Positions 5,496 through 22,627 of a stretch of DNA of 26,044 nt are shown here, one piece after another. The stretch's first letter is position 1, and every line of letters begins with the position of its first letter. This stretch comes from a virus. The notes under the pieces are model-generated. The model saw only the letters and a program-made list of their open reading frames with translations. It was not told the origin of the DNA and made no database searches. Made by a program: the position numbers and the translations under genes. The stretch is from positions 1-26,044 of the IMG/VR virus record IMGVR_UViG_3300015360_002539. The stretch is one strand, 5' to 3'.

Positions 5496-7709
5496 ATGCC
5501 CTCCAACCGCCACAACCTCCCTCTGACGCCCGGCGCACATCGCGCGTGTGAGGGAAAGTCTTCAATGCTCCTGGGGCCGGCCGTGCCGGCGGCCCCTGAT
5601 CTTTCGTCCGTGCCGGCCCTGGGTACCCTCATACCTTCTGTTGGTCATCCAGCAGAGGCCCCAAGCCGCGAGGCCGGGTGGGTTGAGGGCGGCGCGGACG
5701 TTGCCATTCCCGCGCCGCGTCACGAGGACGTTGCCCATTGTGACGATACGCGACGCGGTTCCGCCGACGGCGCGGCGCGGGATATTGAACACGGCTCGGC
5801 GGGAGCCTCGCCCCACCAGGTGAAAGGCCACAGCTTCGCCGACTGGCGCGAGGCCGAGGCGAAGGCGACGACGTGCGTGCGTTACCTCGAACTCATCGGC
5901 GCGCCGACCCACTACGGGCTCAATCAAGCCGCCGTCGCGCTGGGCAAAGCCCCGGCATTCTTCAGCGGATCAAATTCCATGTATTCGCGCTGGCGGCGCG
6001 AGGGTGTCGCGGGGCTGCTGCCGCGCCGTCGCGACTGCGGCACGAAGCCATCGTTCATCGTCCCCGCCTGGTTCATCCCCGCCGCGAAATTCTTCTGGTT
6101 GATCACCAACCGAAACGTGAATGGAGGATCGGTTCCTGAAGCCATTCGCCGCGTCATCTCCCTGCCCGCGCTCCCCGTCGGCTGGCGGCCCAACGACACC
6201 CTGCGATTCGGGCGCGCCATGCGCGACGTTGGCCAGCCCGTCATCCCGACGTGCCCGCCGGAACTTCGCGAACTCATCCTCGCCCGCGAGCGCGCTGGCA
6301 CGCCCCTGGTGCCCGAGCGCATTGCCAGGCAGATTCTCGCCGACCGCTCCACTGTCGATGCCTATCGGAATCCCACCGAAGCCGCCCTCAAGCACGTTTC
6401 CGCCCCCGGCACGATGATGTGGAAACGCGGCGAAGGCGTTGCCGAGCGCATTTTCCTGCGCGCGGGCGACGTCATCGAAGCCGACGACGGTACGATCAAC
6501 TTCCCAGTGTGCGTGCCGTGGACGATGGGCGGCTGTCCGTGCTCGGATAAATTCGGCGTCAAGGTGGGGCGCTTTCAATTCCTCCGCCCCATTGATGCCG
6601 GGAGTCGATTCCGTCCCGGCTACGTCTACGTCGCGCGGCCGCGAGGGAGCTATCGTCGCGAGGACGTGCTCGCGCTCATGCGCATGGTCGCGCGCACCAT
6701 GGGCATCCCGCGCTCGTGGAGATTTGAGCGCGGCACTTGGGAAACACAGATGGTCGAGGACGCCGCGAAACATCTCGGCAGCGACGTGCATCACGTCTTC
6801 TCGCCGCGCTCGAAGCCGTTCGTCGAAGGCGGATTCAGCGATGACTGGAAAAAACTCTCGCTCCATTTCCCCGGCGCAGACGTGGGACGATTTATGGGCG
6901 AAACCGAGGAAGCGAATGTCTTTCTGACGAAGTGCAAGAAAGGCACGCAAGATCCACGGCAGATGTTCCCGCTGCTCGAGACCGCGCTCGCCGCGTTCGA
7001 CGCCATCACGATGGAACAGAATCGCAGCCCGGTGAACTCCGCGAACTACGGCCGCTGGATCCCCGAGGAGCGCCTCGCCGATCACCTCGCGGCGCGACCG
7101 CTTCGGCGGCTCAATCCCGAGAGCGATTGGATCTTCAGCCCCTACGTCCGCGACTGGACCGTGCGCGGGATGCTCGTCGGCGGCAAGGTGCCGATCTTCG
7201 AGGAGGTGAGTGTGCCCTTCGATTTCAGCGCGCCCTGGCTCCCTCAATATCACGGCGCTAAGGTGCGCTGTCACTTTGACCCGAGCGAAGCCCGTTGCGC
7301 CGCGACCCTCGTGCTTTTGGAGAATCACGGCCCACACCGCGCCGGCGACGTGCTCGGCCCCGCCCTCCAGATCAACGAGACCGCCGGCTATGTGAGGCTC
7401 GTGATGGGCTGGGGAGATGACCCGGTGAGCCTCGGCCGCAGACAGCGGCAGCAAGCCGCCAGCGCCATGCGCCGCGAAGTGCGGCACATCCTCCCGCGCC
7501 AGGGACCGAACATCCCCGCGCCGACCGGCATCTCCGAGATGCGCGACGGCCTCGGCCAGAAGGTTGTCATCGACCGCGATGTCATCGACCGCGATGTCGC
7601 ACCCCTCGTAAATCGGAAATCGGAAATCGGAAATCCGTCCGTGGAAATCGCCAGCGCCCGCGAGCAGGCCGCGCGTTTCGAGCGCGACAACGCCCACCTC
7701 TTTGTCTGA
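5496..7709 (+). CDS. MuA-like transposase (phage integrase/replicative transposase)
   Basis: The 737-residue protein should bind the prophage ends and carry out strand transfer. Residues about 1-110 are low-complexity and repeat-derived. DNA-binding helices begin near 'HSFADWREAEAKATTCVRYL' and 'NSMYSRWRREGVAGLLPRRRD'. The catalytic core runs about 320-450: first acidic residue D330/D331 in 'VIEADDGTINF', second position E411 in 'SWRFERGTWET', third E444 in 'SPRSKPFVEGGF'. The middle residue is Asp in MuA, so this is a D-E-E variant. The C-terminal part has the mu-transposase beta-barrel-like 'RDWTVRGMLVGGKVPIFEEV'. The tail has a perfect 15-bp tandem duplication (7566-7595) and an (AAATCGG)n repeat. 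MuB follows. Confidence 0.9.
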   Translation: MPSNRHNLPLTPGAHRACEGKSSMLLGPAVPAAPDLSSVPALGTLIPSVGHPAEAPSREAGWVEGGADVAIPAPRHEDVAHCDDTRRGSADGAARDIEHGSAGASPHQVKGHSFADWREAEAKATTCVRYLELIGAPTHYGLNQAAVALGKAPAFFSGSNSMYSRWRREGVAGLLPRRRDCGTKPSFIVPAWFIPAAKFFWLITNRNVNGGSVPEAIRRVISLPALPVGWRPNDTLRFGRAMRDVGQPVIPTCPPELRELILARERAGTPLVPERIARQILADRSTVDAYRNPTEAALKHVSAPGTMMWKRGEGVAERIFLRAGDVIEADDGTINFPVCVPWTMGGCPCSDKFGVKVGRFQFLRPIDAGSRFRPGYVYVARPRGSYRREDVLALMRMVARTMGIPRSWRFERGTWETQMVEDAAKHLGSDVHHVFSPRSKPFVEGGFSDDWKKLSLHFPGADVGRFMGETEEANVFLTKCKKGTQDPRQMFPLLETALAAFDAITMEQNRSPVNSANYGRWIPEERLADHLAARPLRRLNPESDWIFSPYVRDWTVRGMLVGGKVPIFEEVSVPFDFSAPWLPQYHGAKVRCHFDPSEARCAATLVLLENHGPHRAGDVLGPALQINETAGYVRLVMGWGDDPVSLGRRQRQQAASAMRREVRHILPRQGPNIPAPTGISEMRDGLGQKVVIDRDVIDRDVAPLVNRKSEIGNPSVEIASAREQAARFERDNAHLFV
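5590..5820. repeat. Repeat-derived 5' segment of the transposase gene
   Basis: The segment encodes a low-complexity stretch with no transposase similarity. It ends with a single arm (5793-5820) of the palindromic repeat found whole in the portal gene (25 of 28 bases identical to 19033-19060). It also contains a near-identical direct repeat, GGACGTTGCC(C)ATT, at 5696-5708 and 5726-5739. The reading frame stays open throughout. Confidence 0.6.
7566..7637. repeat. 15-bp tandem duplication plus (AAATCGG)n in transposase tail
   Basis: GTCATCGACCGCGAT is repeated head to tail (7566-7595), coding for VIDRD twice. Shortly after, a heptamer array CGTAAATCGGAAATCGG... (7607-7637) codes for 'VNRKSEIGN'. 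Both are in frame. Confidence 0.9.
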
Positions 7710-8769: not shown

Positions 8770-8954
8770 CACCCCAAAAAGCCCAATCCGCCACCGTGCC
8801 CAGCGCCACCAACGCCAACCTGACGCTGCTGCTTTCTGAAAGCGACGGCCCGCTGTCCCTGATCCGCATCGAGATTCACGAGGCGTCGATCATCTACGTA
8901 AAGCCAGACGAACTCTCCCTCGCCGTCAATAATATCGTAAATCGTAAATCGTAA
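8760..8954 (+). CDS. Small phage protein with repeat-derived C-terminus
   Basis: A 64-residue frame starting within the last codons of the MuB-like gene. The last residues, 'NNIVNRKS', and the TAA stop come from the heptamer repeat (TAAATCG)n at 8934-8965, so the original C-terminus may have been lost or replaced. The core ('LTLLLSESDGPLSLIRIEIHEASIIYVKPDEL') looks beta-stranded. No family recognised. Confidence 0.5.
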   Translation: MDLTPQKAQSATVPSATNANLTLLLSESDGPLSLIRIEIHEASIIYVKPDELSLAVNNIVNRKS

Positions 8955-8965
8955 ATCATAAATCC
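8934..8965. repeat. Heptamer array (TAAATCG)n at gene junction
   Basis: Four to five units ('ATCGTAAATCGTAAATCG...') supply the stop codon of 8760-8954 and end 1 base before ATG 8967. The same family recurs at 9594-9613, 10088-10111, 10559-10587, 12298-12321, 7607-7637 and, inverted, at 18402-18430. Confidence 0.95.
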
Positions 8966-9514: not shown

Positions 9515-9603
9515 TCACCTACGAGCGCCGCCATTCAGGTTTTCAGGTTGTCAGGTTGTCAGGTTGTCAGGTTTCAACCCCGCGCCCGCGCCCTGAATCG
9601 TAA
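9511..9603 (+). pseudogene. Vestigial coupled small ORF filled with repeats
   Basis: The ATG at 9511 overlaps the stop of the previous gene (ATGA), as real genes here do, but after seven codons ('MITYERR') the sequence becomes the octamer repeat (TTGTCAGG)n, a GC-rich block and a heptamer array that supplies the stop. It looks like the start of a small gene whose body was replaced by repeats. The ORF at 10489 has the same structure. Confidence 0.45.
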
Positions 9604-9613
9604 ATCGTAAATC
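9536..9613. repeat. Composite repeat, copy 1 (octamers + GC block + heptamers)
   Basis: Three parts in order: octamers TTTTCAGG/TTGTCAGG (about four), the 19-mer AACCCCGCGCCCGCGCCCT at 9576-9594, and the (TAAATCG)n heptamers that end immediately before ATG 9614. The same order is found at 10511-10587. The whole is the leader of the next gene. Confidence 0.9.
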
Positions 9614-10087: not shown

Positions 10088-10111
10088 CGTAAAACGTAAA
10101 ACGTAAATCCC
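10088..10111. repeat. Heptamer array (TAAAACG)n at gene junction
   Basis: CGTAAAACGTAAAACGTAAATCCC fills most of the gap between 10081 and ATG 10112. It is a variant of the TAAATCG family. Confidence 0.9.
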
Positions 10112-10492: not shown

Positions 10493-10575
10493 GCGAACAG
10501 GAGCCTCGCCGGTTTTCAGGTTTTCAGGTTGTCAGGCTTAAACCCCGCGCCCGCGCCCTAAATCGCAATTCGTAA
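10489..10575 (+). pseudogene. Vestigial coupled small ORF filled with repeats (second case)
   Basis: The ATG overlaps the stop of 10112-10492 (ATGA). After seven or eight codons ('MSEQEPRR') it runs into octamer repeats, the GC-rich 19-mer (10541-10559) and heptamers, giving 'FSGFQVVRLKPRARALNRNS' and a TAA from the array. It parallels 9511-9603. Confidence 0.45.
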
Positions 10576-12297: not shown

Positions 12298-12321
12298 CGT
12301 AAATCGTAAATCGTAATTCCC
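12298..12321. repeat. Heptamer array (TAAATCG)n at gene junction
   Basis: CGTAAATCGTAAATCG... fills the gap between the stop at 12293 and ATG 12322, with no Shine-Dalgarno. Confidence 0.95.
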
Positions 12322-12693
12322 ATGAAGCCCTTGGATTTCCGCAATGAAACATTCGCGAGCCTCCGCGCGCGGCTCACTGGTCTGCGCTCGCAGGTGTGGA
12401 CCGCATGGATCGCCTGGGAGATCGCGCACGGCACGGATGGCGCCACCACTCGCGCCGTGGCCGAGGGCAGCCGCATCGACATCCTCACCCTGCGCCCGCG
12501 TGTGACCGAGCTGTACCAAATCGGCGCCCTGCGCCTGGCCGATGATCAGCCCGACAAATCCGAGGCGCGCTACGTCGTGCGCAGCACCGGCGAGATGGAG
12601 GCATGGGCCGACGAGCAACGCGACCACGCGCTCACCCCGCAGCTCCAAATGCCCGAGATCATTGATTGCCGATTACGGCTCACTAATTACTGA
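12322..12693 (+). CDS. Winged-helix-like phage protein, unknown
   Basis: A 123-residue protein whose middle ('VWTAWIAWEIAHGTDGATTR', 'ILTLRPRVTELYQIGALRLA') resembles a winged helix: a recognition helix 'TLRPRVTELYQIGAL' followed by a wing-like hairpin, as in phage HTH proteins that sense a 'cell is infected' state or bind DNA. The last residues 'DCRLRLTNY' and the TGA stop are read from degenerate and perfect units of the 14-bp repeat, so the native end was probably overwritten. Confidence 0.6.
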   Translation: MKPLDFRNETFASLRARLTGLRSQVWTAWIAWEIAHGTDGATTRAVAEGSRIDILTLRPRVTELYQIGALRLADDQPDKSEARYVVRSTGEMEAWADEQRDHALTPQLQMPEIIDCRLRLTNY

Positions 12694-12739
12694 ACACTGA
12701 TTACTGAACACTGATTACTGAACACTGATTACTGAACAC
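12684..12739. repeat. 14-bp tandem repeat TGATTACTGAACAC x4 between two genes
   Basis: Four units of 14 bases, the last three perfect, from 12684 to 12739. Each unit is two related heptamers (TGATTAC, TGAACAC). The first unit supplies the TGA stop of the upstream gene (12691-12693) and the array ends 1 base before ATG 12741. Confidence 0.98.
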
Positions 12740-18401: not shown

Positions 18402-18430
18402 AATTTACGATTTACGATTTACGATTTGCG
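18402..18430. repeat. Heptamer array, inverted (GATTTAC)n, before the portal gene
   Basis: AAATTTACGATTTACGATTTACGATTT is the reverse complement of the TAAATCG family. It starts right after the terminase TGA and ends shortly before ATG 18436. Confidence 0.95.
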
Positions 18431-18435
18431 ACCCC

Positions 18436-20154
18436 ATGAAACCCATCCTCCAACGATTCGCCGCCGCTCTCGGTGCGCTGCTCGACAATATGCCCACGAC
18501 GCGACGCGGCCGCGTGGGGCAGCGACACGAGCCGATCACCGCGACGGCGGGCGCGACGAATGCGAGCATCATGTCCGCCATCCGCAGCGCCGAGAGCAAC
18601 GGCGAGACACGGCTGCTCTTCGCGCTGTATCGCGATATTACGGTCGCGGGATCGCACGTCCAGGCGGAGTTCGGCAAACGCAAGATGGCCGTGCTCGGCC
18701 AGCCGATGGCCGTGCTGCCCGAGGACAAGGACGATGACGACGACGTCCTCGCCGCCGATGCCGTGCGCCAGATGATCGCCGATTGCGAGAACTGGACGCC
18801 CGGCCTCACGCATCTCATGGATGCGACGCTCTGGCCGGTGGCCTCGGTCGAGAAAATCTATCGTCCGGTCGTGGCCGGCGCGTTGCGCGAGGGCGCGATT
18901 CCGTTGCGATTCACGCTGCGCCGTTTGGAGATCGTGAATCCCACGCTGCTGTGCTTCCGGCAGGATTACACCGACAGCAGGGCGAACGATGGTAGGGCGA
19001 CGCTCCCGCGGAGCCGTGATCAAATAGATCAGGGCGCGGCGGGAGCCTTGCCCTACCAGGCGGAAGTCTGGGAAAAGGATCTGCGCTTCTACGCCACCGA
19101 CGCCGACGGCCGCGTGGATTACAGCGCGGGCACGGCTTACGCAGCCGAGCCGGAGCGGCACATCATTCATCGCGGGCATCTGCTCGTGGGCGTGCGCGAC
19201 AACTGGGGCGGCCCCATGCGCGCGATTGTCTTCTGGTGGTTTTTGTCGCAACTGGCGCGCGACTGGTTCGGGCGCGGCATGGAGCGTTACGGCGCGCCCT
19301 TCGTCGTCGGGCGCACGGACGTGACGGACAACGCGAAGCTCACGATGTTGCAGGAGGCGTTCAGCCTCTCGACCAAGATCGGTGGGCTGGTCGTGGATGA
19401 AGATTCGCAGATCGAGCTCAAGGAGATCGCGACCTCGAACATGGCGGATGCCTACGAGAAATTCATCAACGTCTGCAATCGCGAGGTCTCGAAGGTGATC
19501 GTGGGACAGACCGCCAGTGCCGAAGTGCAACCCTCGGGCCTCGGCTCCGGGTCCAGCGATCTAGCGGGCGAAGTGCGCGATGACATCCGCACCTTCGACA
19601 AGCTCACCCTGGGCGAGACATTGCGCCGGCAGTTGTTCGAGCCGTTCCTGCGCATCAACGGACTGGCCGGGCGCGCGCCGAAGATCGTCTGGGGCGGCTT
19701 GAGCGCGGGTGACTCCGCCGCCATCGCCGATCTCCTGGTGAAGCTCTCCCAAGCCAGCCTCGAACCGGCAGACGAGGCGCTCCCGACGATCAGCGAGAAG
19801 GTCGGATTCCAGATCCAGCGCAAGGCCGCGCCTGAACCGACGCAGGGATTCGGCCCGACACCATTCCGCGCGCAACTCTCAACCTTCAACTCTCCATGGC
19901 CGCAGGCGACTCATCCCTCGGATGCCATCGCGGCCGCGCGGGCGAAGGCGTTGGGCGAAGCCTATCGCGGCGCGCTGGCGCCCGTGCGGCTCATCATCCA
20001 GCACAGCACATCGCCTGAAGACGCGCGCATGAAGTTGGCCGCGTTCTACGCGGACTGGAAACCGGAAAAAGTCCAGCAGCTCACGGAAGAGGCGTTGCAA
20101 ATCGCCGCCGCCGCCGGCGCCGCTGCGGCGCAGAAGGTAGAAGGCAGAAGGTAG
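18436..20154 (+). CDS. Portal protein (Mu gp29-like, DUF935)
   Basis: The 572-residue product forms the ring through which DNA enters the head. Family signs: 'LFALYRDITVAGSHVQAEFG', 'KRKMAVLGQPMAV', 'EKIYRPV', 'RDNWGGPMRAIVFWWFLSQL', 'DWFGRGMERYGAPFVVGRTD', 'NREVSKVIVGQTASAE' and 'LAGEVRDDIRTFDKLTLGET' follow DUF935 order. Three repeat-derived pieces are in frame: residues about 186-208 (palindromic element, 18991-19057), 'AQLSTFNS' near 19872 (ACTCTCA-type repeat) and the last residues 'KVEGRR' with the TAG stop (AGAAGGY heptamers). The protein is longer than the usual 500 or so residues, in part because of these. Confidence 0.9.
   Translation: MKPILQRFAAALGALLDNMPTTRRGRVGQRHEPITATAGATNASIMSAIRSAESNGETRLLFALYRDITVAGSHVQAEFGKRKMAVLGQPMAVLPEDKDDDDDVLAADAVRQMIADCENWTPGLTHLMDATLWPVASVEKIYRPVVAGALREGAIPLRFTLRRLEIVNPTLLCFRQDYTDSRANDGRATLPRSRDQIDQGAAGALPYQAEVWEKDLRFYATDADGRVDYSAGTAYAAEPERHIIHRGHLLVGVRDNWGGPMRAIVFWWFLSQLARDWFGRGMERYGAPFVVGRTDVTDNAKLTMLQEAFSLSTKIGGLVVDEDSQIELKEIATSNMADAYEKFINVCNREVSKVIVGQTASAEVQPSGLGSGSSDLAGEVRDDIRTFDKLTLGETLRRQLFEPFLRINGLAGRAPKIVWGGLSAGDSAAIADLLVKLSQASLEPADEALPTISEKVGFQIQRKAAPEPTQGFGPTPFRAQLSTFNSPWPQATHPSDAIAAARAKALGEAYRGALAPVRLIIQHSTSPEDARMKLAAFYADWKPEKVQQLTEEALQIAAAAGAAAAQKVEGRR
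18991..19057. repeat. REP/MITE-like palindromic element inside the portal gene
   Basis: Two 25-base arms (18991-19015 and 19033-19057) are inverted complements at 21 of 25 positions, beginning GGTAGGGC and ending GCCCTACC. The 17-base loop holds a smaller perfect inverted repeat TGATC-AAATA-GATCA. The right arm recurs at 5793-5820 in the transposase gene, and 17 of its bases, GCCTCGCCCCACCAGGC, in the form seen in the transposase arm, occur at 25256-25272. Confidence 0.85.
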
Positions 20155-20209
20155 AAGGCAGAAGGTAGACAACCTGAAAACTTGATAACCTGAAAACCTG
20201 AAAACCCCA
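20132..20209. repeat. Two abutting repeat arrays between portal and MuF genes
   Basis: AGAAGGT/AGAAGGC heptamers (20132-20168) supply the portal stop codon TAG. They run directly into octamers AACCTGAA/ACCTGAAA (20170-20205), the inverse of the TTTTCAGG family, up to ATG 20210. Confidence 0.95.
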
Positions 20210-22090: not shown

Positions 22091-22600
22091 GTGGCTTTTC
22101 TCGGATTCAGCGTTCTGCGCAACGACATCTCGCCGGAGATTTCGCGGCTGATCGCGACGGCGAAGAATCCCACACCCGTCCTGCGCGCAATGGGCACGAC
22201 GTTCAAGTCCATCACGGAGGGCACGTTCAATTCCTTTGGCGCGGGCTACCGTCCGACACCGTGGGCGCCCAAGGCGGATGGCAGCGGCCCGAGCATCCTC
22301 CAGAAGAACACGGTGCTGTCGAAAGCATTCCATCTCGAAGTCACGAGCACGCACGCGACGTTGCGGAACGCGACGATCTACGCGGCCATCCATCAATATG
22401 GTGGCGTCATTCGTCCGAAGACGGCGAAGCGTCTCTCGTGGGTCGGGCCGGGCGGCAAACGGATCTTCGCGATGAAGGTGACGATTCCGCCGCGACCGTT
22501 TTTCCCCGTGCTCGGCGATAAACTCACGGCGGCGGCGGAGGATAAAATTGCGCGCGCCGGCGCGCGGGTGATCGCGAGTCAGAATGCGGCGGCGGTTTAG
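22091..22600 (+). CDS. G: Virion morphogenesis / tail completion protein (Mu gpG-like)
   Basis: From GTG 22091 the product is 169 residues and matches the phage virion-morphogenesis family: 'SPEISRLIATAKNPTPVLRA', 'GTTFKSITEGTFNSFGAGYR', 'TIYAAIHQYGGVIRPKTAKR' and 'IPPRPFFPVLGD', ending in a helix 'AAEDKIARAGARVIASQNAA'. These proteins join head and tail. A longer start (TTG 22052) is possible; no Shine-Dalgarno decides. Position directly after the MuF gene and its small partner agrees with Mu order. The 58 bases before it (22033-22090) hold no gene. Confidence 0.8.
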   Translation: MAFLGFSVLRNDISPEISRLIATAKNPTPVLRAMGTTFKSITEGTFNSFGAGYRPTPWAPKADGSGPSILQKNTVLSKAFHLEVTSTHATLRNATIYAAIHQYGGVIRPKTAKRLSWVGPGGKRIFAMKVTIPPRPFFPVLGDKLTAAAEDKIARAGARVIASQNAAAV

Positions 22601-22601
22601 T

Positions 22602-22627
22602 TTTCAGGTTTTCAGGTTTTCAGGTTT
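22602..22627. repeat. Octamer array TTTTCAGG x3 after gpG
   Basis: Three perfect units plus a partial, starting 1 base after the gpG stop. Same family as at 9536, 10511, 16626 and (inverted) 20170. Confidence 0.95.

Follow-up and report, generated by a model that had tools for sequence, protein, structure and literature searches.

An in-frame GTAG REP dimer in a Mu-type phage portal gene and its relatives in genomes of Verrucomicrobiota

The window analyzed here is the whole 26,044-base stretch of the IMG/VR virus record IMGVR_UViG_3300015360_002539, and it carries a Mu-type gene set comprising a transposase, an AAA protein, a terminase (assigned by homology to that of a second phage, L003), a portal protein, a protein F-like protein, and the major capsid protein. 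The transposase gene (5496–7709, plus strand; PHROG transposase, E 1.7e-7, and homologues) contains one REP unit near its 5′ end, while the gene of the 572-residue Mu-type portal protein (18436–20154, plus strand), recognized by Pfam PF06074 (Portal_Mu, E 9e-50), by the PHROG portal protein, and by the PDB portals of phages JBD30 and Mu, bears an insertion. Tandem repeats of 7, 8, and 14 nt (TCGTAAA, TTTTCAGG, AGAAGGT, GATTACTGAACACT) are also located at or near many gene junctions of the record, at 7606–7635, 8929–8964, 9535–9613, 10088–10107, 10511–10536, 12298–12316, 12681–12739, 18403–18431, 20130–20206, and 22600–22627. Among the loci fetched by that stage of the analysis they were absent from all save L001, which is the record's own sequence.

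The portal element is a head-to-head REP dimer (REPIN) located at 18990–19058 on the plus strand; being 69 bp long, it adds 23 codons in frame, and it is read at residues 185–208, within DGRATLPRSRDQIDQGAAGALPYQ. As proposed in the initial annotation, it is a palindrome, albeit an imperfect one: two 32-nt arms (18990–19021 and 19027–19058) are 84% complementary, separated by a gap of 5 nt, and the outer ends read GGTAG...CTACC. Folded as single-stranded DNA, the element reaches −32.3 kcal/mol, compared with −14.8 ± 2.2 kcal/mol for 200 dinucleotide shuffles (z −7.95), none of which folds as well; the fold as RNA is also very stable. The left REP unit (GGTAGGGCGACGCTCCCGCGGAGCC, 18991–19015, plus strand) matches the family pattern exactly and is the C-G variant at stem pair 11/20, and the right one (reverse complement GGTAGGGCAAGGCTCCCGCCGCGCC, 19033–19057, minus strand) is of the G-C type and differs from the consensus at two positions, making the portal copy a heterodimer. 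The 17-nt spacer between them (GTGATCAAATAGATCAG, 19016–19032) is, again as previously noticed, an inverted repeat in itself, GTGATC...GATCAG; the motifs TGATC and GATCAG recur in the spacers of the host dimers L055, L121, and L129. The portal element has no match in Rfam. Inspection of its flanks (GCGAACGA / GGCGGAAG) revealed no target-site duplication, on which ground its identification as a MITE was rejected. The earlier designation "REP/MITE-like" can therefore be kept in its first part, the element being a GTAG-tagged REP dimer of the REPIN or BIME type, but not in the second, which implies target duplications.

The 25-nt REP unit, GGTAGGGCGA[G/C]GCTCCYGC[C/G]GAGCC, consists of the GTAG tag and a hairpin. 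Its 20-nt core, GGCGGGAGCCTYGCCCYACC, is present in 116 stretches of bacterial genomes, mostly of Verrucomicrobiota (Limisphaerales and relatives), with some in Planctomycetota and others. The bacterial copies whose existence had been suspected thus form a dispersed family, with 47, 24, 26, and 19 matches to the whole 69-bp query in the candidate-host genomes G001, G002, G003, and G004, respectively; full-length dimers with 83–84% identity were found in G003 (bacterium isolate RI_55). The consensus GGT(A/G)GGGCGA(G/C/A)GCTCC(C/T)GC(C/G/T)GAGCC was derived from 229 unit copies with 75 distinct sequences, representing all loci fetched by then. The tag is nearly invariant, with T3 in 214, A4 in 190 (G in another 37), and G5 in all of the 229 units. 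Stem pair 11/20 is G-C, C-G, or A-T, and pair 12/19 is G-C or C-G; the observed level of compensatory pairing at these positions was not reached in any of 2000 shuffles, with the proviso that at 11/20 both G and C were permitted by the search pattern itself; the A-T variants, like the swaps at 12/19, were recovered unaided by it. A tandem G.A/A.G mismatch at positions 9/22 and 10/21 is conserved in the middle of the stem. Three-quarters of the dimers (60 of 80) are arranged head-to-head with GTAG outward, and their spacers range from 2 to 96 nt, compared with 17 nt in the portal dimer. The GTAG tag, the short palindrome with conserved pairing, the dispersed host copies, and the inverted pairs with a spacer are among the features by which GTAG REPs and REPINs are recognized.

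Nine verrucomicrobial prophage portals have no residues at the site of the element. With additional viral portals gathered by a search with the prophage-portal alignment and by another with the terminase, 28 viral portals were compared, and the REP element is present in none but that of this phage; the same residues were not found in distant portals, where according to the initial annotation they would have refuted its reading. In about eight portals the segment from LLCFR to WExxL is drawn out into a hypervariable loop, and the remaining ones turn directly. The nearest portal relatives are 44–55% identical, with loops from 15 to about 45 residues, and no near-identical phage devoid of the insert was found. 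Without the 69 bp the loop would read RQDYTDSRANEAEVW, i.e., 15 residues, the same length as the loop of L274 (KWAYQAGVVADEALW); since the portal loop is so variable, this agreement is suggestive and possibly a coincidence. An AlphaFold portal model built from 28 sequences (mean pLDDT 76), whose best matches are the JBD30 and Mu portals, has pLDDT below 50 at residues 181–211 and above 80 in most ten-residue blocks of 21–170 and 221–270, so that the hypervariable loop in which the insert falls is, judging from the model, probably disordered. The very stable fold as DNA and RNA could be taken to indicate a role of the nucleic acid itself, with an mRNA hairpin or a DNA cruciform controlling packaging or the translation of the portal, yet this is very improbable: relatives manage without the element, the host copies are spread over unrelated genes and other regions, and the palindrome lies mid-gene and not at the translation start. 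Because the element belongs to a dispersed host REP family and is absent from the portal homologues compared, there is good support for the claim that phage genes have received a mobile palindrome. Two further observations concern loops of this kind. The sister phage L120 has an unrelated 27-residue stretch with a 9-bp inverted repeat (GCACGGATG...CATCCGTGC) at the same portal loop; this stretch may be another inserted repeat. The variable loop of the large terminase likewise appears to accept repeats, as it contains (GAAGGCA)n in this phage (17067–17107), (CGAAGTC)n in L248, and one REP unit in L003.

The portal gene is not the only phage gene with such a sequence. Three 20-nt matches with up to three mismatches are present in the record, compared with 0.04 expected by chance. 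The recurrence of the right arm in the 5′ region of the transposase gene, reported in the initial annotation, corresponds to a single REP unit (GGTGGGGCGAGGCTCCCGCCGAGCC, 5793–5817, minus strand) with one mismatch to the 25-nt family pattern; the similarity to the right arm extends over 43 nt at 81% identity, and the unit, read as HGSAGASPHQ, falls within an unconserved N-terminal stretch of the transposase ORF. The partial copy that, according to the same annotation, lies where the glycosyltransferase gene begins could not be recovered, with no match at up to 3 mismatches in 20 nt, no unit at up to 6 in 25, and no 9-mer GCGGGAGCC. One REP unit, read as GSAGASPHQ, is present in the terminase of the second phage, L003, with almost zero net gain in length, which suggests a replacement rather than a clean insertion. 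All three phage REP units agree in orientation and frame (GSAGASPHQ / GAAGALPYQ). An exact-pattern search with the left-arm variant yielded no other viral contig.

Similar peptides are encoded in proteins of the bacteria. The MutL protein of RI_55 (L055) contains GRATLPRSPDQPHELGSAGASPYP in the linker that joins its N- and C-terminal domains, and an SNF2-family protein (L121) has an in-frame element, GRATLPRSLDRRESLGSAGASPYR; both carry the peptide of the portal, in the same frame (GRATLPRS...GSAGASPY). In a DUF1592-family protein (L129) the element is situated between two Pfam domains, and REP units are also found in MutS (L093), PutA (L082), and GcvP (L098). As for the MutS of RI_55, its REP dimer lies within the domain III match, and a different insert-like stretch, CSGSSGRESAHSFSESNQSRLASAATECG, is located just before domain V. 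Unrelated host and phage proteins share a peptide because a selfish DNA hairpin is common to them, and the same peptides recur partly because the TAG within GTAG closes one frame out of three in either direction. It could be argued that the peptide is a selected protein element, kept for use by the portal in contacting the capsid or scaffold or in gripping DNA, the palindrome being incidental, and the open frame and the common orientation and frame of the three phage units agree with this. Such selection is nevertheless very unlikely, given the identical peptide in the unrelated MutL and SNF2-family proteins, the predicted disorder of the insert, the many unrelated sequences at this loop across the portal family, and the two right-arm differences from the host consensus, both of which alter a residue (Ser to Ala and Ser to Leu). 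The peptide added to the portal is most likely without function.

The partner transposase was sought by scanning nine genomes or records for PF01797 and by running a RAYT query against 245 genomes of the order Limisphaerales, 130 of which contain RAYTs. Among approximately 60 inspected Y1-transposase/RAYT loci none has a RAYT bracketed by the REP family of the portal element; a portal-type REP unit is present in two of them, beside a short IS200-type gene in L150 and about 1.5 kb away in L159. Many of the inspected RAYTs are flanked by other GTAG REPs (GTAG followed by GACAGGCGTCCCGCCTGTC in RI_55 and by GCAGACTGGAAGTCTGC in G004), the types flanking the RAYTs of the candidate hosts being GTAG followed by GACAGGC... 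and GTAG followed by GCAGACT.... The expectation of a REP-associated transposase in the host is thus borne out as far as the presence of RAYTs in candidate hosts is concerned, but not as to their association with this particular family. Short Y1 transposases of about 150 aa were also considered as partners and rejected: the one tested matched NCBIfam IS200/IS605, and the flanks contain mostly other inverted repeats.

Some RAYT loci are of interest in their own right. In a DinG-like helicase (L218, 1–2859) a RAYT-type Y1 domain is embedded in frame, giving the order DEAD–Y1_Tnp–Helicase_C_2 in a 953-aa frame according to Pfam, the Pfam check covering this locus only among the loci of the type; the Y1 domain is bordered by the in-frame REP peptides KVGQASSLP... 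and GRMPALQ. Related loci are L217 (G003:C17:81545-82087) and L219–L223, and several other genomes contain related RAYTs within open frames of some 960–1040 aa, most with flanking REPs of the type GTAG followed by GACAGGC. Possibly, a RAYT has been domesticated within, or parasitizes, a repair helicase. A sister REP family, GTAGGACAGGC-TC-GCCTGTC, is represented by 20 stretches (L282–L301) on about 15 viral contigs, among them that of the portal relative L248 (IMGVR_UViG_3300044487_000029); most of these copies are without a clear coding frame.

Taken as a whole, the portal element is very probably a REPIN copied from the host into a Mu-type phage and tolerated there. Its source would be the chromosome of a verrucomicrobial host of the Limisphaerales type with a dispersed 25-nt GTAG REP family, from which the REPIN would have been copied into the portal gene of a phage infecting such a host. 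During infection or lysogeny, a host RAYT would probably have recognized it in the form of single-stranded DNA hairpins and moved it. Since no inspected RAYT is bracketed by the family of the portal element, we can only infer mobilization by a RAYT and the host-to-phage direction; the neutrality of the insert is likewise presumed. The main rival account holds that recombination, homologous or illegitimate, with host DNA or with a repeat-bearing phage brought the element in, and not RAYT transposition. The L003 terminase unit, with its almost unchanged length, and the lack of a RAYT partner for this family in the genomes examined are in keeping with such an entry, which is possible though the less probable course; against it, the portal gene holds the whole dimer, GTAG through CTAC, and no adjoining host sequence was recognized, as predicted for a mobile unit. 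Once copied as a REPIN, the insert would owe its survival to its length of 69 bp, to its open reading frame, and to its location in a portal loop that is hypervariable and probably disordered.

With a complete REPIN residing in a virion gene of a phage, there is a concrete vehicle for horizontal transfer, as well as a place to test the model in which REPINs are sequence populations inherited vertically (PMC8049555). It is a rather doubtful, tentative proposal that phages carry protein-coding REPINs between verrucomicrobial hosts, these spreading as in-frame peptide insertions through repair genes of the host as well as virion genes of the phage; if true, it would contradict inheritance with the chromosome only. 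A selfish DNA hairpin that puts a similar peptide into a phage portal, MutL, and an SNF2-family protein also calls for caution when sequences of Verrucomicrobiota are annotated or used in homology searches.

Di Nocera et al. (2013) described intragenic GTAG REPs, which are more numerous in the verrucomicrobium Opitutus terrae than elsewhere and in many cases lie in repair genes (PMC3733652). Those REPs resemble the family described here in the GTAG tag, the short GC-rich hairpin, the mainly head-to-head dimers, the verrucomicrobial hosts, the in-frame inserts of 20–30 residues, the presence of inserts in DNA repair genes, and the GTGG found in some units, as in O. terrae GTAG-20, the comparison covering these features (PMC3733652). 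Phages are absent from that report, whereas here a structural gene of a phage contains one copy. RAYTs, by which the non-autonomous REPINs are duplicated (PMC8049555), in other species recognize single-stranded GTAG hairpins and cleave adjacent to them (PMC8266576). As in REPINs, or HH dimers, two inverted REPs with a variable spacer form one hairpin (PMC8049555, PMC3733652), and the G.A/A.G mismatch resembles one in E. coli REPs, where a mismatch in the middle of the stem is required for TnpA-REP activity (PMC8266576). REPINs are, however, described as host-inherited, with replicative horizontal transfer thought unlikely (PMC8049555), whereas the portal REPIN is on a phage, and no RAYT was found beside its family. 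Rickettsia palindromic elements act alike, as selfish palindromes inserted in frame that give similar peptides in unrelated proteins (PMC10969869), but they are about 150 bp long, the REP-like ones being CGTC-tagged (PMC3733652), and the GTAG tag and the 69-bp dimer in Verrucomicrobiota rule out membership in that group. Intragenic palindromes are therefore less unusual than originally claimed, having been published for both Verrucomicrobia (PMC3733652) and Rickettsia (PMC10969869); among open-licence papers none on REPs in phage genes was found. The finding is sound and interesting, yet no new kind of system, intragenic GTAG REPs being already known in O. terrae; what appear to be new, as far as the open-licence literature shows, are the Limisphaerales family and its setting in a phage virion gene.
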